Below, piece by piece: positions 16,514 to 45,931 of a stretch of DNA of 64,000 bases (position 1 is the first letter of the stretch; the number at the start of each line of letters is the position of its first letter). The stretch comes from Thermodesulfovibrio aggregans (GTDB lineage Bacteria; Nitrospirota; Thermodesulfovibrionia; Thermodesulfovibrionales; Thermodesulfovibrionaceae): the NCBI RefSeq assembly GCF_001514535.1, contig NZ_BCNO01000002.1, positions 62,001-126,000 on the forward strand. The letters run 5' to 3'. The translations under genes were made by a program, and so were the position numbers. Under the pieces are notes generated by a model. The model was not told the DNA's origin and made no database searches. It saw only the letters and a program-made list of their open reading frames with translations.

Positions 16514-19203
16514 GTATTGTCAAGATTCAATAATACCTTAATACTGTCCTCTTCAACATGATGTTTCTGGAATCCTAATCTTTCTGATAGTCCAAGCATA
16601 TAGGTATTTATTCTTAAAATATCCATCCAAATTCTTTTTACACCTAAATCTCTTGCCACCTCAATGGCATAACTGCAAAGTGCTTTTCCAACACCTTTGC
16701 CCTGCCATGCATCTTCAACTAAAATTGCCATCTCAGCATCAGTACCATCAGGATCCTTTGAAAGTCTAACATCTGCAACAATCTTTTCCTCATCTCCTTC
16801 CTTAACAACGCATACAAATGCAAGTTCTCTATCATAGTCAATCTGACAAAATCTGACAAGATTGTCATGCCTTAAATCAATTGCTCTCTGGAAAAATCTC
16901 AAGCTTATTGTTCTTTCTGAACATCTTCCAAGCAGTGCTGCTATGAGGGATTCATCTTCTGCTTTAATGGGCCTTACAATTGCCTTTGTCCCATCCTTTA
17001 ATTCAACCTCTTTGTAAAGATGAACAGGATATGGACATATACTTAAATGGGGAGGGCAAAATTCGCCTTTTATAATTGTCTTTTTCTTTGGAGCTGTTTT
17101 GTCAAGAATTATACTGCAGTCAAGAGCAAACATCTCTGAATCGGTAATGAATATAGGATTAATATCAAACTCCTTTATTTGTGGGAAATCAGATATAAGA
17201 TAAGAAAATTTCACTACAGTCTGTTCAAGCTTGCTTAAAATATCTTCATAGTAGGGATATTTTTTTAGAAAATGATAAATCTTTGTCTCTTCCATAAGTC
17301 TTTTTGCAAGAGTTTGATTAAGTGGAGGAAGTCCTACTGAGTAATCTTCAAGTGCTTCAAGAAGATTTCCTCCTGTACCAAATATGATAACTGAACCAAA
17401 AGTTGGATCTTTTTTAGCTCCTAAAGCTATCTCATATCCATATGTTATAACCATTGGCTGAACAATAACAGAAGCTTCAGGGTCTCCATTTTCAGTAGCA
17501 AGTCTTTTAAGCCATTTAAATCCTTCGGTTGCCTCAAGTTCATCTCTTACATCAAGTATTACTCCACCTTTTTTGAATTTGTGTATAATCTTTGGTGTAT
17601 CTATTTTTAAAACAATTGGAAATCCGATTTCAGCTATTGCCTGCTTAAGTTCTTCAATATTGTCAGCTTTCTTTGTGAGAATTACAGGAATATCATAGCT
17701 TGATAGAATTTCAGAGGCTTCAAAAAAAGTAAGTATAGACCTTCCTTTTGATATAGCATTTTCTATTATATTCTCTGCTTTTTCAGAGTCAAATTTAACA
17801 TCTTTAAGAATTGTCTGCGGAGTCTCAAGAAGCAGTTTTAAGTTAAAATCATAACGATACATGTACATAAAAGTTCTTACTGCCTGTTCAGGGGTTACAA
17901 AAGTTGGTATGCCATGTACATTGAGTAAATCCCTTGCTTCATTAACTTGTGTTGCGCCCATCCAGTTAGTAAGTACAGGTTTGTAGGGATTTTCTTTTAA
18001 CACCTTTATAACTCTATTAGCAGTCTCAACAGGTTCTGTTCCTAAAGAAGGAGTAAGCATTACAAGTATACCATCTACATTTTTATCTTTAATTACTATT
18101 CTTAAGGCTTTTTCATAGTCATCAGGTTTTGCATCTGAGACTAAATCTAACGGATTTCTTATAAAACGAGTTGGCACATTTCCTTCAAGTTCTGTTACTG
18201 TCTGTTCTGAAAATTCAGCAAGCTGCCCACCAAGTTTTAAAAGACTGTCTACAGCAGTAACAGCTGGAGCACCAGCATTTGTAATTATTGCAAGTCTTTT
18301 GCCCCTTGGTCTACGCTGTTTTGAAAGAGTCTCAGTAATATAAAACATATCAAGTGTTTCATCAACCCTTACAGCACCTGCTCTTTTAAAGGCAGCGTCA
18401 TAAACTTTGTCTTCACCTGCAAGAAGCCCTGAGTGAGTTAAAGCAACTTCAATTGATTCAACAAATTTCCCTGATTTTACTATGACTATAGGCTTTGAAA
18501 AAGCAAAAGATCGAGCAGAAGTCATAAACTTTCTTCCAGTCTTTATAGACTGCATATAGATAACAATAGCTCTTGTAGATGGATCAACACCAAAAAAATC
18601 TATAAGATCAGCAAAATCTATGTCTATATCAGAACCGAGAGAGACAAAATAACTAAACCCAATATTTTTATCAGCAGCTCTATCTAACAAAGCCACTGAG
18701 AGAGTTGCACTCTGAACTATCAGGGCGATATTGCCTTTTTTAAGTTTTCTTCTAAAAAGACTCACATTTAAATTTATTCCTGGTCTAATAAAACCAAGAG
18801 TGTTTGGCCCAAGAAGCCTGAATCCGTATTTTCTGTGGATTTCTTCTATTTTTTCCTCAAGAAGCATTGCTTCTTTGACCTTTGTTCTAAAGTCAGGACA
18901 GAGAAGAATAACTCCTTTTACTCCTTTCTGTCCGCATTCTTCAAGAGTATCCAGAATATTTGCACCGCATTCTTCCGCTAAAACAACAAGATCAACTTCT
19001 TTTGAGATATCACTTATAGTTTTGTATGACTCGACTCCCTGAACAGAGTCTGCTTTGGGGTTTACAGGATAGACAATTCCTCTGTAGCCTTCGCCAATCA
19101 GGTTTCTAAATACGGTATAACCAATGCTTCCAGGTGTATCATTTGCTCCTATTACTGCAATTCTTCTTGGATTAAAAAAATAATCAAGATTGTAAATTGA
19201 CAT
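16510..19203 (-). CDS. Pat-like protein: NDP-forming acyl-CoA synthetase domains fused to a GNAT acetyltransferase
   Basis: 897 residues: CoA-binding Rossmann domain ([17 protein letters not shown]), succinyl-CoA-ligase-like domain with [10 protein letters not shown] carrying the phosphohistidine-type His, an ATP-grasp domain (about 490-700) and a C-terminal GNAT domain ([18 protein letters not shown]...[13 protein letters not shown]). This is the layout of YfiQ/Pat lysine acetyltransferases, which inactivate Acs. Unlike the classical enzyme, the His of the synthetase half appears retained, so ligase activity is possible. Start 19203 is chosen because AAGGAGAGG precedes it; an upstream ATG at 19239 lies further inside gyrA. 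It overlaps gyrA by 20 bases. Confidence 0.87.
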
Positions 19204-34840: not shown

Positions 34841-34913
34841 GGGCGGTTAGCTCAGTTGGGAGAGCGCCAGAATCGCACTCTGGAGGTCGGGGGTTCGACT
34901 CCCCCACCGTCCA
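34841..34913 (+). tRNA. tRNA-Ala(CGC)
   Basis: 73 bases, CCA not encoded. Acceptor GGGCGGT pairs with ACCGTCC, including the G3-U70 pair that defines alanine tRNAs. Anticodon stem CCAGA/TCTGG encloses ATCGCAC, so the anticodon is CGC (reads GCG). T arm GGGGGTTCGACTCCCCC. A TATTAT box at 34825-34830 lies 10 bases upstream. An integrase remnant starts 38 bases downstream, as is common where elements insert at tRNA genes. Confidence 0.95.
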
Positions 34914-34951
34914 TTAAGTAAAATCAAGGGTTTCCACCACATAGCACAATC

Positions 34952-35386
34952 CTAAAAATTGGTTACTGTGTCAGTTTTTGTGTCACTTATTTTTTTTGAT
35001 GTTGAAAAAATGCGGCTGAGACAGCTTACAGCTCTGGATTTATGTTCTGGTGCAAGGTGTGAGTATCTTAAGGTCATCTTAATGTCTTTGTGTCCCAAGA
35101 GTTCTTTAACAGTTGTAAGGTCAACTCCGTTCATAACAAGCTGGCTTGCAAAGGTGTGTCTTAAGTCGTGGAAGTGGAAGTCTTTAATGTCAGCCTTTCT
35201 TAAAACATGATTAAAGCTTCTTTTTACATCATAGTATCTTGTATTTGTTAGAGGATTCACAAAAACATAATCAACATCAATCTTTCTTTCTGTAAAAAGC
35301 GTTCTGAACAAAGACAGTAAAGTATCGTCCATTGGAATGTCTCTTCTTTCTGAGTTTTTTGTTTTCTCAATGTGGATGTATCCCCG
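34952..35386 (-). pseudogene. C-terminal remnant of a tyrosine recombinase (phage-type integrase)
   Basis: About 145 codons of the catalytic domain remain. IHIEKTKNSERRDIPM is the central strand region, FHDLRHTFASQL contains the second catalytic Arg box, HKDIKMTLRYSHL gives the His/Lys and the tyrosine. The first catalytic Arg box and the whole N-terminal DNA-binding part are missing; the frame meets a stop 24 codons before the internal Met at 35332. Beyond this the sequence no longer looks like integrase. Its 3' end points to tRNA-Ala(CGC). It marks the left end of the accessory island and is unlikely to be active. Confidence 0.75.
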
Positions 35387-35448
35387 ACTTTGACAGTTAA
35401 AAATTTAAAATCCTTTATTTTCAATATGTTAGGGCGCACCTGTCCTGT

Positions 35449-35640
35449 TTACTCCACTACAACTTCTTTGAGGATTACTGGCGGGATTTTTACTCCTAAG
35501 GCTCTCAATATCTGATTACTCTCTCTGCAGCTGTCCTTGCATAAACCTCTGTTTTTTCCGTCCTTATCTTTATCGCTCTTACTCTGTCAAGTTCCTCAAT
35601 AGCTTGCTCTGCCGTTATCCTCTGTTAACTTCCTCTGTAT
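35449..35640 (-). pseudogene. C-terminal fragment of an IS transposase (IS1634-like)
   Basis: On the minus strand one frame reads ITAEQAIEELDRVRAIKIRT and continues to ARTAAERVI, then a second frame completes ILRALGVKIPPVILKEVVVE with a stop at 35449. This resembles the tail of IS1634-type DDE transposases. One frameshift and the absence of the catalytic core show it is dead. The rest of the gene-free stretch 35387-35941 holds only AT-rich sequence and the repeat at 35798-35862. The family assignment is from memory of the C-terminal pattern and is moderate. Confidence 0.4.
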
Positions 35641-35797
35641 TACTCTTAATACGTAAAAACTTAAAAAACATAGCATTATATGTCCTGAAAATTCTCACTG
35701 AAAAATTACATTCTTCGATAAGTTTCTTTTCAATTTTTGTTTATTTAATATTTTCATAACTTGCATTCTATCTTTCCTCCTTACACATTTTTTCTCC

Positions 35798-35941: not shown

Positions 35942-36613
35942 TTATAGTCTTAAAAGATATCCATTGTTTTTTAACCAATCCCTTGAATTTTCATAATTTG
36001 GCATTAGCATTTTTACTATATTCCAAAAAGCTTTTGAATGATTTTTTTGTTCAAGATGAGCAAGTTCATGGACAACAACATAGTCAATGACCGATAGAGG
36101 AGCCATTATTAGTCGCCAGGAAAAATTTAAGTTACCTCTGTGAGAGCAAGAACCCCATCTTACATTTGCATTCGTAATAGAGATTTTATTATATGTAAAT
36201 CCTCTTTTTTGAGCGTACCATTGGACCCGTTCCGAGATTTTTTCATAGGCTCTTTCTTTATACCAGCTGATAAGTAACTGCCTTGCCATTGGCTGATAAT
36301 CTCTCAAGAGAAAGAAACCATTATTAAACTTCAGTGGTGTATCCTGCTCATTAACTATGTACAATTGGTATGATTTTCCAAGATAGAGAAATCCCTCTCC
36401 ATTTACAAACTCTTTTTTGGCAAAATGTGGGTCTCTGGTGAGCACTTCATTTTTCTTTTTTTCTATCCACCTTATGTGTTTTGTGACAACTTTTTTTATA
36501 GTTTCTTCACTAACATCAAAGGGCGCCCTAACTATTAGGGTTGCATCGTCAGTTACCTGAAGGGCTATGGTTTTTCTTTTTGAGCGAATTATTTTGTCAA
36601 TTTTGAGTGTCAT
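35942..36613 (-). CDS. YgjP-like zinc metallopeptidase (DUF45)
   Basis: 223 residues. The zinc motif VVHELAHLEQKNHSKAFW carries HExxH with a downstream His, and NVRWGSCSHRGNLNFSWRLIM is the family signature before it. Proteins of this group (DUF45, YgjP/SprT-like) often sit beside type I restriction genes, as here, directly after hsdR with 3 bases between. The link to restriction is by location only; no substrate is known. Confidence 0.88.
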   Translation of the reverse strand: MTLKIDKIIRSKRKTIALQVTDDATLIVRAPFDVSEETIKKVVTKHIRWIEKKKNEVLTRDPHFAKKEFVNGEGFLYLGKSYQLYIVNEQDTPLKFNNGFFLLRDYQPMARQLLISWYKERAYEKISERVQWYAQKRGFTYNKISITNANVRWGSCSHRGNLNFSWRLIMAPLSVIDYVVVHELAHLEQKNHSKAFWNIVKMLMPNYENSRDWLKNNGYLLRL

Positions 36614-36616
36614 TGA

Positions 36617-39600
36617 TTAATTGTTACCTCCATAAATGTGATATGCAAGTTCCAATAGTCTTTGGGCTATTTCATTTCTTTTATTGAACAGATTAACCTC
36701 ATTTTTGGTAAGGTATGGATGTGTCTCTTCTGCTACACTTCCTATTCTTGTTTGTTTAGATGGTTCTCTTTGTTTCAATAGATGAGCAATTATAAATGAC
36801 TTTAATCTTTTTTGTTTTGAGTAGTTTTCCCAGAAATCAACTGAGTTTATTTCTCCTTTGATAATTGATAAAATGTCCTGTGTTAGGGTAACCAGGAAAT
36901 TAATTTGATTTTCATCATAATTTTCTATAGGCTCCTTACCCAAGATCATCTGTTTTAGTAATCCAAAAAATGGCATTTCTTTTTTCGGATCAAATCCAAA
37001 GTTTTTTTCGGCATCTCTTCCTTTTTTAATTTCACCTCTCAGGTTTTCTAATTCCTGAGCCAGTAAGTCCCAATTTTCTTTGTATTCTTCAAGTATCTTT
37101 TTCAATCTATCTGAAAAGCGCTCATATAACTCAGGGTCTTCCTCAAAGTGTTTTTCAATATGTTCTCTTATCGCATATTCCAATTCTTCTGCTCTGGCTT
37201 TTGAGGTCTTTTGCCTTGATTTCGGAATAAAATCCTCTGATAGCAGTGGAATAGGCGGAATCTTTGGATCTATTCCTTTTGATACTAAGTATTCCTCTAC
37301 AATTTCTCTTATCTTTTTACTCGCATCTTTTATGCTGAGTTTATCATCTCTGTATCTCTGTCTTGCAGATTCTTTTATGAAGTTGATAATTTTTAGGTCT
37401 GTTGTATATTTTAAGGCTTCCGGATCGGGAAGAACTTTGTCCAGTGCCCTATTGAATGTACGAACAACGTTTATAAATTCATCTCTTATTTCTTCATCTA
37501 CCAGTAAATCTATACATTCTTCGACATTTTCTCGCCAGTTGTCAATTTGAAATTTTTTGAAGAAATCTTCAATCTGACTGTGTGTATATCTAAGTTCATC
37601 TTTAGTCCTTGCTTTATTGACAACGACCTGACTTATCTCTTCAATATCCTCATCAGCGTATATTGCAAGAGCTTCCTTTAAATGTTTCAAAACACCAACA
37701 TAATCGACCACAAAGCCACAGTATTTATTTTTATAAACTCTATTAACCCTTGCAATTGCCTGTAAAAGCCTATGTTCTTTGAGGACATTATCAAGGTACA
37801 GAACCTGCTCTATTGGAGCATCAAAACCTGTAATAAGCATCTCGTTTACCACAATTATACTGACATCTCCGTTTATTCCACTTTGTTCGTCGGTTTTGTC
37901 AAATGGCATCTTAAAACTTTTTATATTTCTGTCGTGTTCGTTAACATCTGTATATTCTCTTTTATAAATTTGCGGGTCATCGTTGGGTGCACCGGATATT
38001 ATAACGGCTACTTTAAGCCTTTTCAGTGTATCTATGTCAAGATTATAGGGATTATTTTTTTCCAGTTCTGCTATTTTTTCTTTAAGGGCATTCTCAAGTT
38101 TTTCTTTATACCTTATTGCTGCAAGTCTTGATACAGCAACAACCTGAGCTTTAAAACCATTAGGGAAAACATGGGTTATATAGTGTTCTATCATATCTTT
38201 TGCCTTGTCCCTTATTACATTTGCATCTTCAAGATAAGCCCGCCAGGTATATCTTCCCATAATCTGCCGTTTTTGTTTCTCATCAACTGCGTGGAAGACA
38301 TCTTCAAATTTTGCATTAGCAGCATCTTCGTCGGAGATTTCTGCTGAATGTGTCCTTCCTTCGTATACAATTTCAACTGTTACCCCATCCTTAACAGATT
38401 GACTTATAGTATACTTATCAATGTAATCGCCAAAGGTAAGCTCAGTTTTTTCTATTGGTGTGCCGGTAAAGGCTATTTTTATTGAGTTTGGAAGAGCTTT
38501 TCTTAAATTGGCTCCTAAAATATTGTATTGAGTTCTGTGAGCCTCATCTATCATTACAAGAATTTTATCAGAGTTGTTAAGCAGTGGAAATTCTTCTCCA
38601 AGCTCCCTTTCCTGAAATTTATGTATCATTGCCATTACTAAATCGGGCGTATTTGTTCTTAGAAATTCTTTCAATTTTTCAATGCTGTCGGCGTGGTGAA
38701 TAGTGTAACCCACACTTTTTGAAGTTTCTTTGAGTTGTTTTTCAAGTTGTTCCCTGTCTGTTATAAAGACGATTTTAAAATCACTTAGATCAGGATCCCG
38801 ATAAATAGCTCTCACAGTTTGCATCATTGTCAAAGATTTACCTGACCCCTGTGTATGCCAGACTATACCACCTTTTTCTTCTGGTGTTTTCCCTCCCTTG
38901 ATTTTGTTGATTATTTTTTTTACAGTCCTGAATTGTTGATACCTTGGAGCGATTTTAATCAAACCTGTGCCTTTGGAATCTTCAACAAAAAGAGTAAAAA
39001 TGCGAAGTATATCCAGTAAATTACTTTTTGTAAGTGTTCCTTGAACCAGCAATTCCTGGCTTGTAACTATACTTTTTTCACTTATGTCTGAAAGTGTATA
39101 AGGATATGGATCTTTCCATTCATTGAAATGCTCATATTCTGATGTTATAGTGCCTAATTTTGCCACCTGATTGGATGTAGCAATCATAAATAGGTTATAC
39201 CAGAAAAGTTTTTCATTTCCCTCTCTTATACCTCTTCTGTTTGCATATCTCATAAGTTGAGTTATGGCTTCATTTACAGGGTCTGCTATTGCTGGGGATT
39301 TGCACTCTACAACAACCAAAGGCATGCCGTTGACAAAAAGGACTATATCGGGAATTATGTGTTTTTCAGTGCCTGGAATGTTCACTTTAAATTGAGAAAT
39401 GGCAATGAAAGAATTGTTTTCTGGGTTTTGAAAATCTATGTATCTCACTGTTGGACTTCTTTCCCCTGTTTTTTTATTTTCCGAGACAGAAGTATTTTCT
39501 AAGAGTAAATCGTGGATTTCTCTGTTGGCTTCAAGCAAAGAATTGGCCTGTGGTGTTGTTATTCTTCGCACAACTTCGTTTATCTGGTCATCTTCTATCC

Positions 39601-39838
39601 ATTGATTTATTCTCTTAATAGATGCTTTAAGTTCGTCTTCAAGAATTACTCCTCTAAAACTTTCTCTAAACTTTATAGTATTACCGTAAACAGGTTCGCC
39701 ATTACTATCAAAGCTGATAATTTCTCTTACATCCTCAGGATTATCTTTATTTTGCCTGTAAATCTTCCAACCAATCCTTTGAAGATGTGTAAGAAACGGG
39801 TTTTCTACATAATGTTCTTCGTCAAGTTTGGCATACAT
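36617..39838 (-). CDS. hsdR: Type I restriction enzyme subunit R
   Basis: 1073 residues. An N-terminal PD-(D/E)xK nuclease (IPDIVLFVNGMPLVVVECKS, about 165-190) is followed by a superfamily 2 helicase with Walker A in HTQGSGKSLTMM (about 330), the DEAH box in VMIDEAHRTQ, and motif VI region ARVNRVYK. It translocates DNA and cuts it at a distance when complexed with HsdM and HsdS. The C-terminal helical part is full length, so it looks functional. It follows hsdS after a short broken gene; the ribosome site AAGGAGG precedes the ATG. Confidence 0.95.
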   Translation of the reverse strand: MYAKLDEEHYVENPFLTHLQRIGWKIYRQNKDNPEDVREIISFDSNGEPVYGNTIKFRESFRGVILEDELKASIKRINQWIEDDQINEVVRRITTPQANSLLEANREIHDLLLENTSVSENKKTGERSPTVRYIDFQNPENNSFIAISQFKVNIPGTEKHIIPDIVLFVNGMPLVVVECKSPAIADPVNEAITQLMRYANRRGIREGNEKLFWYNLFMIATSNQVAKLGTITSEYEHFNEWKDPYPYTLSDISEKSIVTSQELLVQGTLTKSNLLDILRIFTLFVEDSKGTGLIKIAPRYQQFRTVKKIINKIKGGKTPEEKGGIVWHTQGSGKSLTMMQTVRAIYRDPDLSDFKIVFITDREQLEKQLKETSKSVGYTIHHADSIEKLKEFLRTNTPDLVMAMIHKFQERELGEEFPLLNNSDKILVMIDEAHRTQYNILGANLRKALPNSIKIAFTGTPIEKTELTFGDYIDKYTISQSVKDGVTVEIVYEGRTHSAEISDEDAANAKFEDVFHAVDEKQKRQIMGRYTWRAYLEDANVIRDKAKDMIEHYITHVFPNGFKAQVVAVSRLAAIRYKEKLENALKEKIAELEKNNPYNLDIDTLKRLKVAVIISGAPNDDPQIYKREYTDVNEHDRNIKSFKMPFDKTDEQSGINGDVSIIVVNEMLITGFDAPIEQVLYLDNVLKEHRLLQAIARVNRVYKNKYCGFVVDYVGVLKHLKEALAIYADEDIEEISQVVVNKARTKDELRYTHSQIEDFFKKFQIDNWRENVEECIDLLVDEEIRDEFINVVRTFNRALDKVLPDPEALKYTTDLKIINFIKESARQRYRDDKLSIKDASKKIREIVEEYLVSKGIDPKIPPIPLLSEDFIPKSRQKTSKARAEELEYAIREHIEKHFEEDPELYERFSDRLKKILEEYKENWDLLAQELENLRGEIKKGRDAEKNFGFDPKKEMPFFGLLKQMILGKEPIENYDENQINFLVTLTQDILSIIKGEINSVDFWENYSKQKRLKSFIIAHLLKQREPSKQTRIGSVAEETHPYLTKNEVNLFNKRNEIAQRLLELAYHIYGGNN

Positions 39839-39867: not shown

Positions 39868-40017
39868 TTACTGCCTTTTCCAGCTAATGTCCACATCACT
39901 CTCACTGCTCTCTTCTCCTCTTGCATAAGAGCCAAAGAGAGCTATCTCACTTACACCAAATTTTTCCACTAAATAATTTTTATGTTCCTGTAAAATTTGA
40001 TGTATTTTATTTTTCAT
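39868..40017 (-). pseudogene. Truncated MNT-type nucleotidyltransferase
   Basis: Only 49 codons: the N-terminal helix and the catalytic hairpin ALFGSYARGEESSESDVDI, which has the GSYxRG-x8-DxD motif of minimal nucleotidyltransferases (MntA-type antitoxins). The usual C-terminal half is missing; after DVDI the frame runs into SWKRQ and stop. Another frame yields LEKAVNFLLEKED, so part of the original tail may remain out of frame. It overlaps the hsdS stop by 4 bases (ATGA). Probably an inactive remnant, although a short functional peptide cannot be excluded. Confidence 0.6.
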
Positions 40018-41249
40018 TTTTTGTCTTCTTCCTCAATTAATTTATTTACCCTAACCTTTCCTGTAAGCAAATCTTCCATCAAACCTTTTTTGATACGCTC
40101 AAGTTTTTGCTTGTAGGCTTCTTCTTTTTCTATGGTGTTGTCTATCTGTGAAAGAATTTCAGCAATGCGCTGTTGCTCGAGGAGGGGAGGGAGAGGGATT
40201 TGAATTTTTTTCACTATTGTTGTGTTTAAATTTCCTTGTGTTCCTATTTGACCCAAAGAATTTATTTCTGTTTCTTTAAGCTCAAGTAAGTAATACAGAA
40301 ATTCCGATATTATTCTATTAGAAAGATCTTTTAATGCCACAAAACCATCGTGTATACAAGAATGTATCTTAACAATTGTTGGTCGCCCAATTGTTGCACA
40401 TATGCTCATAATAACTTCATTCGGTTCTACTTTTACGCTTTTTTCCTCTCCTATTTTTGAAAGGTATTGATTAGTCTCTAATAAATACTTTCCCTTAATA
40501 TCTTCAATTCGTATCCATGCTCTACCTATTCCTTTTTGAGTAAAGTAAATTGGATCATCAATAGGTCTTGGAGAAGCTCCTCTCTTAACATTACAAACTT
40601 CCCCCAATCTCACAACTTCCCACTCTTCTGGAATTCTTCCAATTGGTGAATCTTTAAATTTATGTGTTTTCTCACTTCGTATTTTTCCATTTTCATCAAT
40701 GCCTTTTGTGAGTAAATCCTGCATCAAGCCCTGTTTTATACGTTTGTATTTCTCTATGATTTTTTCAGTTTTTTCTATGGCATTGTCAACAGTTTCAAAG
40801 ATTTCTGCAATTTTTTGCTGTTCGGGGAGGGGAGGAAGTGAGATTTGAAATTTTGAGAATTCCGAAATCCAAAATCGCTTATGCTCACTTCCAGGTTTAA
40901 AGTTTAATATTTGTAATATGCAATATGCTACATATAAATTATTTTCTTCATTTTTTGTATTTAGTATTTTTATTGCAGAGGATTTTAATTTAAAAGGGAA
41001 ATTGATATATTTACTTTCAGTTGTAAAATCATCAAAAATAATTACGGGCAAGTTTTCAAATATTCCAAATTTTTCATCAGTATAACCTAAAATAAAAGTT
41101 TTTCCTGGAGTCAAAACAGGGATACCACTATTTTTATCATAATTTTCATTTTTTACTAGATATTTTGTAGGTTGTTCATACTTTAAAATCTCCCCCAACC
41201 TTACCCTTTTCCACCCTTCTGGAACTTTTATATTGTCATTCATTTGCAT
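40014..41249 (-). CDS. hsdS: Type I restriction-modification specificity subunit
   Basis: 411 residues with the classical double layout: target recognition domain 1, conserved helix region ([20 protein letters not shown]...GLMQDLL), target recognition domain 2, and the second conserved region ([20 protein letters not shown]...GLMEDLL). Each domain reads one half of a split DNA target. The two conserved regions are similar at DNA level as well. It overlaps hsdM by 14 bases and is upstream of hsdR on the same transcript. The target site cannot be predicted from sequence. Confidence 0.94.
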
Positions 41250-43677
41250 ACCCCAGTTGTTTTAAAAATTCATTAAGTTTTTTTACCTCCTCATCTCTCT
41301 CTGTTATCAGCTGATTTAAAGAAATTTTATAATTATCCCATAACTTTTCAAAAATTTTTATAACTTCTTTCTTTTCAGCGTTTATGTATTTTTCTAACCC
41401 TTGTTTTAGGGTTTCTTTAAATTTTTCCAAAAGCAACTCTTTTGCTTCTTCCTCGGTCAATGTTTCTCTTTTTTGTTTTACGCTTTCTTCAAGTGTTTGT
41501 TGTTTTTGTTTTAGTTCTTTGTTTATTTTTTTCAATTCTTTGTCTTTTTCCTCTATTTTTCTGATCAAATCTTGCCACTTCTGTGCTTCTTTAATTGCTG
41601 CTTCCTGCTTGCTTGATAATAAATCATTAATAATTTGTTTTAAAAATTCTTTTACTTTGCCTGCTGTTTTTTGTCCCTGTTCTTCCTCATCCCAGTCTTC
41701 CACTTCTTCAAGAATTTCGTTTAATTCACCTTCTGTCTGTGCAATGTTGCTTTCAATTTCTTCAATCTCTTCTAACTCCTTTGCAAAAAACTTCCTTTCA
41801 ATCATCTCATCATCAATAAGCATTTTACTCCACCCAGACGAAACCACAGTTTTAAAATCATACTTTAAATCTTCCCACCAGTTGACAAATACGCCAGCAA
41901 TTTTAAATTCATCCAGTAATCCTAAAGGCAGTAACTTCTCTTTTAAACTTTTCAAGGCTTTCTCTCTGAAGTTCCAGAGATTATTATTCTTAGGAAATGC
42001 CTCAATATCTTTTTCAACATCAGCCCACCATTCGTTTAGTTTATGGAAATGTCTATCATACGTTTCTTTTACACCTGCGTAATTTTCAATAATTTCCTTT
42101 ATTTTGCTTTTTTCATCAATATCACTTATAAAGTCAAGGCTTTCATTATCTGTTTCAGTAAATAAGTTATCCACCTTAAGATTAAACTTCTCCATCTGTT
42201 GTTTATAAAGCTCAAGCTCCTGTTTTGGTATGTGTCCGTTTATGTGGTGATGGACATTTTCTATTTCTGGCTCGGGTGAATTATCCACATATCTGCGAAT
42301 ATTTAAATTAAAATCGTTTTCTTCTATTTCTTTGATATCTACAAGCCTTGAATATTTTGGAATTTCTAAATTGTTATCAAACACTGTAACAATCTTTTCA
42401 ATATCCTCAGGTCTTAAATAATTTTGATTTCTTCCTTCTCCATATTCTCTGTCTGCGTTGATAAATAAAATCTTGTTTTTAAGATGCTCTGGCTTTCTTT
42501 TATTGATGACAACAATACATGCAGGAATGCCTGTATTATAGAAAAGTTTTGGTGGTAATCCTATTATTGCCTGAATAAGGTCATCTTTAACTATACCTTC
42601 TCTTATAACTTTTTCCTGCCCGCCTCTAAACAAAACACCATGGGGCATAACAGTTGCCATTATCCCATCTGGTTTTAAGCTTGCAATCATATGCTGCAGG
42701 AACATCAAATCTGCCTTTTTACCAGTCTCTGGCGTAAAGCCATATTTAAACCTTTCAGGGAACTGCATATTTGCTTTTGTATAGTTTTGAGAAAAAGGCG
42801 GATTTGCTAAAACCCTATCAAATTGTCTAATGTAACCCTTCTCAACAAACTTTGGTGTGGTAAGTGTATCCTCATTCTCAATATGTGCATCCGGGATATC
42901 GTGAAGTATCATGTTCATTTTGCAAATAGACCAGGTTACTCCATTATTTTCCTGTCCGTAAAGAGCCAGATTCTTGGGATTTTGACCTTTTTCCTCTACA
43001 TATTGTCTTGCTTCAATTAAAAAACCACCAGACCCGACGGTTGGGTCGTAAATTCTCATGCCTTCCTGGGGTTTTACAAGTCTTACCATTAAGGTTTTCA
43101 CATGCGGTGGAGTATAAAATTCTCCGCCCTTTTTCCCTGCCGAGTCGGCAAATTCTTTGAGTAAGTATTCATAAGCTGCTCCGAGAAGGTCGGGAAATTC
43201 AAAATCCTCGTTTCTTAAACGGTATTTATTAAAATGGTGGATTAAGTCGATAAGTTGCTGGTCTTTCAGGCGAGTTTTACCCTTCACAGCATTGAAATCT
43301 ATATGTTTCAAAACACCATCAAGTTCAGGGTTTGCTTCTTCCAAAGCTGCAAGTGCTTTATTTAGCTGATTGCCAACATCTTCTTTTAAGCTCAAAATAT
43401 TTTTCCATCGGGCTCTTTCTGGAACGAAAAAGGTATCGCCATAGGTAGTTTGATCTTCTAAAAGTTCTTCTATTTGCTTTTCAGAAAATCCCTGGTTTTT
43501 AAATTCTTCAAAAAGTTTTTCTCTCTTTTCCTCAAACACATCTGACATACGCTTCAAAAAAAGCATACCGAAGATGTATTCTTTATATTCGGAGGCATCC
43601 ATTTTGCCTCTTAAAATGTCGGCAGCTTTAAATAGGTGGGTCTCAAGTTGCCTAAGTGTAATCTTTCCGTTATTCAT
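41236..43677 (-). CDS. hsdM: Type I restriction-modification methyltransferase subunit
   Basis: 813 residues, longer than the common 500-550. It transfers methyl groups to adenine N6. The SAM-binding motif [13 protein letters not shown] (about 210) and catalytic NPPF (in VLANPPFSQ, about 290) are present, as is an N-terminal helical HsdM_N domain ([20 protein letters not shown]). The last 320 residues are highly charged and likely coiled coil ([18 protein letters not shown]), which probably supports HsdS/HsdR assembly. It is the first gene of the hsd operon. The ribosome site AGGAGAATAGG precedes the ATG. Confidence 0.94.
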
Positions 43678-43748
43678 ATCCTATTCTCCTACTTATGGTT
43701 GAGTTTTGTTCGGTATTTATATAACTAATTTTATTTCATTTTGCATAA

Positions 43749-43777
43749 ATTATACTATGTTTTACCCTGTCAAACAA
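43749..43777 (-). promoter_or_regulatory. Promoter of the hsd operon
   Basis: On the minus strand TTGTTT (43777-43772) and TATAAT (43754-43749) are separated by exactly 17 bases and lie about 70 bases before the hsdM ATG. The perfect -10 box and spacing support a housekeeping promoter for hsdM-hsdS-hsdR. Confidence 0.55.
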
Positions 43778-43855
43778 GGAAAATGGAGAAAAAAAAGATA
43801 AAATATCGCCAAAGTCAGACTTAAAATTGACATGTTTTAGAAAAGTGGGGGATCT

Positions 43856-44067
43856 ATGAAATGGATAATTCAGTATTCCAATAAAGCCTTAGATTTTATT
43901 AAGAGAGAAAAAATTTCTGACGAGGTTAAAACTGAAATAAAAAATTGATTTGGAAGGTTAAAGGAGAGAACATAAACCTTGATATAAAAAAACTAAAAGG
44001 AGAATGGTAAGGTTATTACAGAATAAAGAGAGGATTGATATTTACAAAGGAGCAAAGGAATCAATAA
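43856..44067 (+). pseudogene. Decayed RelE/ParE-family toxin gene
   Basis: The frame from ATG 43856 reads MKWIIQYSNKALDFIKREKI and continues to DEVKTEIKN before a TGA. After a one-base shift the same protein continues as GENINLDIKKLKGEW, stop, GYYRIKRGLIF, a recognisable RelE-type core. At least two stops and one frameshift show the gene is dead. No antitoxin gene is visible beside it. It lies in the 627-base gap 43678-44304 at the right edge of the island. Confidence 0.65.
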
Positions 44068-44133
44068 GGGATTTTTTAAGTCTATCCGAAGCAAAAATAA
44101 AATGCAATAAAATCAATAGGTTACAACCTGTTG

Positions 44134-44163
44134 ACGCGGGTTCGATTCCCGCCGCCTCCACCA
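44134..44163 (+). other. Isolated 3' end of a tmRNA (ssrA) gene, probable att scar
   Basis: GACGCGGGTTCGATTCCCGC followed by CGCCTCC, A and an encoded CCA. The T arm GCGGG-TTCGATT-CCCGC is perfect (44136-44152). The acceptor half CGCCTCC places U at position 70, as in tmRNA and tRNA-Ala. The preceding GACGCGGGTTCGA string is typical of tmRNA 3' ends. No tmRNA 5' half, pseudoknots or tag frame exist upstream, so this is only the 3' piece left when an element integrates into ssrA. Confidence 0.6.
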
Positions 44164-44269
44164 ACAGAGATAATCCTTCCATGAAAATTGTAAAAAGTAA
44201 ATGCCTCTCACATCTGAGATAGACTATCTAAAGATTTTCAAAAATTAGCTAACATACTAATCTATGTGT

Positions 44270-44275
44270 TATAAT
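44270..44275 (+). promoter_or_regulatory. -10 box upstream of ilvC
   Basis: TATAAT 29 bases before the ilvC ATG; the -35 region is poor (AGCTAA at 17-base spacing). The ATG is preceded by GGAGGTGG. No leader peptide or terminator is seen between 44164 and 44304. Confidence 0.4.
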
Positions 44276-44289
44276 TTTTAAATTTTTAG

Positions 44290-45931
<1,642 letters not shown>

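Follow-up and report, generated by a model that had tools for sequence, protein, structure and literature searches.

The stretch of DNA analysed here, hereafter the window, comprises 64,000 nucleotides of contig C2 of the Thermodesulfovibrio aggregans genome (G000:C2:62001-126000). Within it, a tRNA-Ala(CGC) gene at 34841..34913 (plus strand; called by ARAGORN and from the loci of relatives) is the attachment gene of a tRNA-Ala element. It is followed by the C-terminal remnant of a tyrosine integrase of this tRNA-Ala-targeting element (34952..35386, minus strand), which is cut by an insertion sequence (IS) and has a full copy at tRNA-Ala(GGC). The left-end remnant of the IS (35383..35685, plus strand) matches the IS copy that lies after the intact ssrA at 95.2% over 314 positions. 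Next come a gene for a YgjP-like metallopeptidase (35942..36613; family match) and the genes of a type I restriction-modification system, hsdR for the restriction subunit (36617..39838), hsdS for the specificity subunit (40014..41249) and hsdM for the DNA methyltransferase (41236..43677), all on the minus strand. The remaining features are on the plus strand. A decayed, weakly ParE-like toxin gene remnant (43851..44077), homologous to the same genome from C1:671571 onwards, is the last gene of a second element before its P arm (44078..44132). This arm holds a single CTATCCGAA arm-type repeat, is defined by three matching arms beside ssrA-type cores, and leads into a 32-nt att core (44133..44164). 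Beyond the core lie the upstream region of ilvC (44243..44304), kept in relatives G013 (82%) and G010 (81%), and ilvC itself (44305..45318), identified by comparison of the loci in the genus.

The att core is the 3′ end of ssrA, namely the T arm, the 3′ strand of the acceptor stem, CCA and one further A. The genome has a single intact ssrA of 352 nt, with the tag ANSELALAA, on the other contig (G000:C1:357199-357550), and the fragment lies at least about 463 kb from it, whichever way C1 and C2 join. The original prediction placed a displaced tmRNA 3′ end at 44134-44163, with no tmRNA body upstream. Its T arm, acceptor strand and CCA are as predicted; the segment was one base short on each side, and the match to the intact gene is exact over the 32 nt. 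The lack of a tmRNA body was likewise confirmed, as ARAGORN detected three tRNAs and no tmRNA in the window, Rfam at the gathering cut-off returned the same three tRNAs only, and a match to RF00023 at 44049-44163 reached 25.6 bits (E 1.4e-8), below the cut-off of 47. The sequences of these three tRNA genes also agree with the prediction in having no encoded CCA, which is nevertheless not peculiar to ssrA here because a tRNA-Asp gene on C1 encodes it too. A 26-nt probe for the ssrA 3′ end, allowing up to 3 mismatches, found two copies in the 2.0-Mb genome and the reversed probe found none, which excludes a chance origin of the fragment. With a 25-nt probe and up to 2 mismatches, exactly one match was obtained in 14 of the 15 other genomes of the genus and none in G011, which is 63% complete. 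The second copy is therefore peculiar to this genome among the 16 searched.

On its right side the fragment borders a native gene set. The next gene after ilvC is psd at all 11 loci of the genus that were compared, and leuA is next in line at one of them. The fragment ends 141 nt ahead of the ilvC start codon, a position that would suit a functional RNA element of the ilvC leader or a decayed tRNA or tmRNA pseudogene. However, the identity begins sharply at the T arm with no tmRNA sequence upstream, and a TATAAT box resembling a promoter (by eye), which G013 has kept as well, is located downstream of it, so that the fragment should not be in the ilvC mRNA. We find such an origin hardly credible. 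A comparison for an empty site upstream of ilvC, as the prediction had proposed, was uninformative since eight different upstream neighbours occur among 11 loci of the genus (by eye); it did establish that relatives have no ssrA copy there. No tmRNA was found within 1.5 kb of ilvC at any of 12 other loci in the genus, and thus the right flank of the fragment is not demonstrable as a former right neighbour of ssrA.

On the left side of the fragment, the 55 nt ahead of the core (44078-44132) recur before an ssrA-type core at three other sites, C1:671.9k of the same genome and one site each in relatives G002 and G007. When a 100-nt window arm was compared with the core left out, it scored 106, 62 and 52 against these sites respectively, and none of 1000 dinucleotide shuffles reached any of these scores. 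The arms of C1 and G002 contain a tandem repeat of CTCTATCCGAACTCTATCCG, with one mismatch in G002, of which the window arm keeps one unit; when the whole window was scanned for the 13-nt arm unit, allowing 2 mismatches, one further match appeared at 1619 on the minus strand and looks like chance. The site in G002 lies about 7.6 kb downstream of that genome's ssrA and in the same orientation, while that in G007 is on a contig other than that of ssrA and has a degenerate core. The C1 site shares the decayed toxin gene with the window as well (90% over 43851-44034 and 83% over 44046-44149), and its core consists of the first 17 nt only. One of the two pieces of the C1 toxin copy matched ParE_toxin with E 0.0014 and 19.6 bits against a cut-off of 23; the second piece matched no family, and an antitoxin-like ORF adjoining it matched no Pfam family. 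The ssrA element is assignable only over about 280 bp adjoining the fragment. The pattern of the P-core junction occurred at 14 loci in public genome contigs, in scattered groups that we take as chance, and at none in viral contigs. A search of plasmid and phage DNA with 43678-44304 gave no match.

If the fragment is one end of an element, a second arm should follow the intact gene. The sequence 3′ of the intact ssrA, up to an insertion sequence, is AAAAAGTCTTAAAAATCAATAATTTTTT, and it matches the P′ arm of relative G015 with a score of 39, the alignment covering 27 nt up to the IS; no shuffle reached this score in runs of 500 and 1000. The ssrA flanks of G001, G004 and G008 match the same arm with scores of 40, 102 and 76, and P′ also follows the P-arm-bearing cores of G002 (score 65) and G007 (score 36), each reached by 0 of 500 shuffles. 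The matching ssrA flanks thus reach 39 to 102, whereas control flanks taken from 21 tRNA genes reach 11 to 24 against the same arm. Ten of 14 other ssrA flanks do not match; for those of G009 and G006, 22 of 500 shuffles reach the score, and from G011 no ssrA flank was obtained. The P and P′ arms share repeats, with CTCTATCC repeats flanking the core on both sides, and P, core and P′ are found in one piece in G002 and in G007, where they lie away from ssrA. Because P′ stands behind P and the core in these two relatives, and because P and P′ have repeats in common, we take P′ to be part of the attachment site. We infer that the arm after the intact ssrA is the P′ of an element and not native flank; P′ after ssrA in five genomes could still represent native flank. 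The right flank of the window fragment does not match P′ (248 of 500 shuffles reach the score), as expected outside an attR. Since P precedes the fragment and P′ follows the intact gene, ssrA looks like an attL and the fragment like an attR. The prediction that the fragment is an attachment-site copy of the ssrA 3′ end is upheld by the P arm that it has in common with the island of G002 and by the P′ at the intact ssrA. Two other ssrA loci of the genus deserve mention. In G009 (L097) and G012 (L095) a frame resembling a P4-type integrase begins soon after ssrA (by eye), and the ssrA of G009 has CCATAA in place of the encoded CCA.

We therefore consider it likely that the fragment represents the attR left by a mobile element whose attB was the ssrA 3′ end and which was later parted from ssrA. 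The attP would have been composed of the P arm, the ssrA 3′ end and the P′ arm, with CTCTATCCGAACTCTATCCG repeats and the AAAATCAATAA motif flanking the core on either side. The crossover would probably have occurred at the T loop, with which the C1 junction at TTCGATTCC agrees, although no empty site was seen. Integration would have regenerated ssrA as attL, the intact gene with its P′ arm that is now on C1, and would have left behind at window 44133 an attR made of the P arm and the displaced 32-nt ssrA 3′ end. Rearrangement with IS copies taking part probably separated attL and attR later, placing attR upstream of ilvC and about 9 kb from the truncated end of the tRNA-Ala-targeting element; the scar would be inert without a matching integrase. 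Because the presumed attL and attR fall on separate contigs, no island can be seen connecting them, and the fragment is filed as a stranded island end, not an intact island. Counting against the attR reading are the degenerate core of G007, the 17-nt core at C1:671.9k and the fact that no integrase is tied to the site.

The P-arm copies away from ssrA bear on a different reading, integration at a secondary site upstream of ilvC. The fragment would then be the element's own ssrA-like core, no island would have been split, and the sequence after the intact ssrA would be native flank or the trace of another element. Ends of the ssrA-element family do occur elsewhere, as seen from the P, core and P′ of G007, and at C1:671.9k a copy of the P arm meets a segment of an integrase gene at TTCGATTCC. 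Yet this same C1 junction suggests a crossover within TTCGATTCC, in which case a secondary insertion would retain nothing of the core beyond the T loop, whereas the window fragment has the full acceptor end through CCACCAA. Moreover, no P′ arm stands out in the window, where the best local scores are 29 and 28 (without a control). Secondary integration is thus unlikely, if still worth weighing. The C1 locus has a further peculiarity in the form of a 984-bp direct repeat (98.3%; L073:13487-14470 and 16951-17932, that is C1:668.5k and 671.95k) that begins exactly at TTCGATTCC. One copy lies within an integrase gene at tRNA-Asp and the other is joined directly to the ssrA element's P arm; the repeat looks like the product of site-specific recombination at the T-loop core.

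The insertion sequence bears on how the two halves came apart. Behind the intact ssrA and its P′ lies an IS copy of about 855 bp, which starts 28 nt after ssrA and has no evident target duplication (by eye), and then a gene that we take to be mqnA-like. In all 13 relatives with a match, the mqnA-like gene is away from ssrA, either on another contig or more than 460 kb distant; the two are on one contig in three relatives, and the distance there exceeds 460 kb. In G013 and G010 the mqnA-like gene converges on a gene whose counterpart in T. aggregans, at C1:878.6k, adjoins a 97.5% copy of the ssrA-side IS. The same IS has a remnant in the window as well, where it interrupts the tRNA-Ala integrase. 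Given that the right joint of ssrA is lineage-specific and that IS copies sit at the joints, the right side of ssrA has been rearranged in this lineage, and this rearrangement probably parted the halves. One exchange between IS copies does not account for the window and the ssrA joints, as the two large copies, one at ssrA and one at the former mqnA neighbour, have the separated genes at the same IS end. About 100 bp of the end of mqnA are duplicated (by eye), and the path of rearrangement is more complex than a single homologous exchange. A misassembly at the 32-nt repeat would leave the same two flanks swapped. Elsewhere on C1 (L009:9338-12229) we noted a 963-aa RtcB-like protein that is 481 aa longer than its counterpart in G010 and possibly contains an intein (by eye).

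The original prediction had further suggested that everything from the integrase remnant to the fragment may be a former genomic island. The right end does belong to an ssrA element, but the integrase remnant belongs to another one. It is 97% identical over 143 residues to a copy with a 366-aa open frame at tRNA-Ala(GGC) on C1, and the same flank follows the tRNA-Ala gene in both. Relatives of the remnant occur at tRNA-Ala(CGC) in G010 and G003 with the same adjoining gene, presumably a dehydrogenase. Since remnant and flank are found at tRNA-Ala here and in relatives, the left end is that of a tRNA-Ala element and the right end that of an ssrA element, and the stretch from 35 to 44 kb is composite. 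One island extending from the tRNA-Ala integrase remnant to 44163 would fit the contiguity of the stretch, with an integrase at one end and an att copy at the other, and the flanks of the remnant's family are laid out like the ssrA P′ arm, with a AAAATCAA motif and then tandem repeats (by eye). Against this, integrase and flank go with tRNA-Ala, the tRNA-Ala gene and the fragment have only the generic T arm in common, and the flank of the window tRNA-Ala scores 19 against the P′ arm, a chance level reached by 54 of 500 shuffles. We regard a single island as highly improbable. TTCCACCA at 34930-34937 was considered for the other half of the attachment site at ssrA and rejected because the same flank occurs at tRNA-Ala(GGC) with the full integrase. 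More generally, tRNA-targeting integrases of the genus lie behind a common AAAATCAAGGGTTT-like motif, followed by tandem repeats that differ per element, for example CTGTGATAAAATTGTGATAAA; the motif was seen at tRNA flanks in L085-L093, L022 and L072 and at 34914-35010 of the window.

The type I genes between the two ends have relatives in G001, where an hsdM gene 71% identical to that of the window is clustered with a YgjP gene, and with hsdR and hsdS genes named by eye, beside a tyrosine integrase. From this gene neighbourhood, the type I restriction-modification cargo is probably mobile. Either element, or neither of them, may have brought these genes.

Two groups of enzymes come into question for the ssrA site. 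No match to the integrase on the ssrA contig of G015 was found in the T. aggregans genome at 1e-15; other tyrosine integrases are present. The same query gave 22 rows in 20 of 81 genomes, and all 22 loci were scanned within 1.5 kb for tRNA, tmRNA and the ssrA core. An ssrA core or tmRNA was found near three of them, in two genomes (G031, and G053 twice). These two are among the four best genomes besides the query's own; in the other two the integrase lies beside tRNA-SeC (G077) or has no tRNA, tmRNA or core within 1.5 kb (G073). The integrase of G053 directly adjoins ssrA. That of G031 ends at a displaced ssrA core (L165:7604-8861), another stranded copy, with the intact ssrA on a different contig. 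The remaining, weaker rows are away from ssrA, and at the query locus in G015 no core lies within 1.5 kb, with ssrA 3.7 kb away. Pfam names Phage_integrase and SAM-like domains in integrases of this type, and a zinc ribbon was seen by eye. Judged by sequence and position, one candidate enzyme for the ssrA site is this tyrosine integrase, which relatives carry at ssrA. A second candidate is the family of the window remnant, whose members sit at several tRNA genes, tRNA-Ala among them, with flanks laid out like the ssrA P′ arm; in sequence, these flanks do not match P′ beyond chance. The flank of tRNA-Pro scores 24 against P′, reached by no shuffle, and no integrase is known beside tRNA-Pro. No serine recombinase was recognised by eye among the ORFs within 12.4 kb downstream of the T. 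aggregans ssrA.

In G002, an island at ssrA, about 7.6 kb long and closed by the site with P, core and P′, holds type III restriction-modification, PIN, RadC and HepT genes, and no integrase was recognised among its listed ORFs of at least 80 aa. Behind this island, P′ agrees with the ssrA flank of G004 at 45 of 46 aligned positions, as expected if the island entered an ssrA already bearing that flank. G035 has a very small att-bounded unit without an integrase, a cassette of about 0.7 kb that holds a DUF5615 gene and is enclosed by ssrA and a second ssrA 3′ end (L167:8653-9370). One might speculate, though we doubt it, that in this genus att-bounded defence cassettes without an integrase are moved in trans at ssrA by a tyrosine integrase, and that split attL and attR sites like those of T. 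aggregans remain recombinogenic. If so, separated pairs of such sites would drive chromosome rearrangement whenever a tyrosine integrase of this kind enters the cell.

The displaced ssrA end of T. aggregans is thus traceable to its own attachment system through both arms, even though the island is split, and such scars would escape any method that needs the two ends on a single contig. In this genus, the region to the right of ssrA appears to be a busy landing site, and at least one relative has defence genes as its cargo. Among the matches listed in a search of the literature on Thermodesulfovibrio together with tmRNA or genomic islands, there was no paper on ssrA islands of this genus. The mechanism is ordinary and known; it is met here in an unusually legible, broken state. 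Cis-mobilizable elements (CIMEs) are cargo bounded by att sites without recombination genes. The ssrA island of G002 resembles them in that it appears to be att-bounded and to have no recombination genes. Unlike the pair of ends of a CIME, the window has one end only.

Displaced ends of tRNA and tmRNA genes are a standard mark of genomic islands under the Islander concept, in the available text of that work (PMC4383910). As in the islands described there, the target gene looks regenerated at one end and a displaced 3′ fragment marks the other; unlike them, the two ends in T. aggregans fall on separate contigs, and the genome has no known integrase to go with them. The ssrA islands of Dehalococcoides, as far as described in the available part of the source (PMC3146451), have displaced ssrA 3′ repeats of 20 bp, each preceded by a motif specific to the element and none farther than 100 kb downstream of ssrA. 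Insertion there is at the T loop, and an integration module, with serine recombinases, is present in 16 of 31 islands. In comparison with that description, the repeat of T. aggregans is longer, at 32 nt, and on the contigs as assembled at least about 460 kb separate its copy from ssrA. A displaced ssrA 3′ repeat with an element-specific motif ahead of it is common to both, and by that account the Dehalococcoides islands are the nearest described set (PMC3146451).
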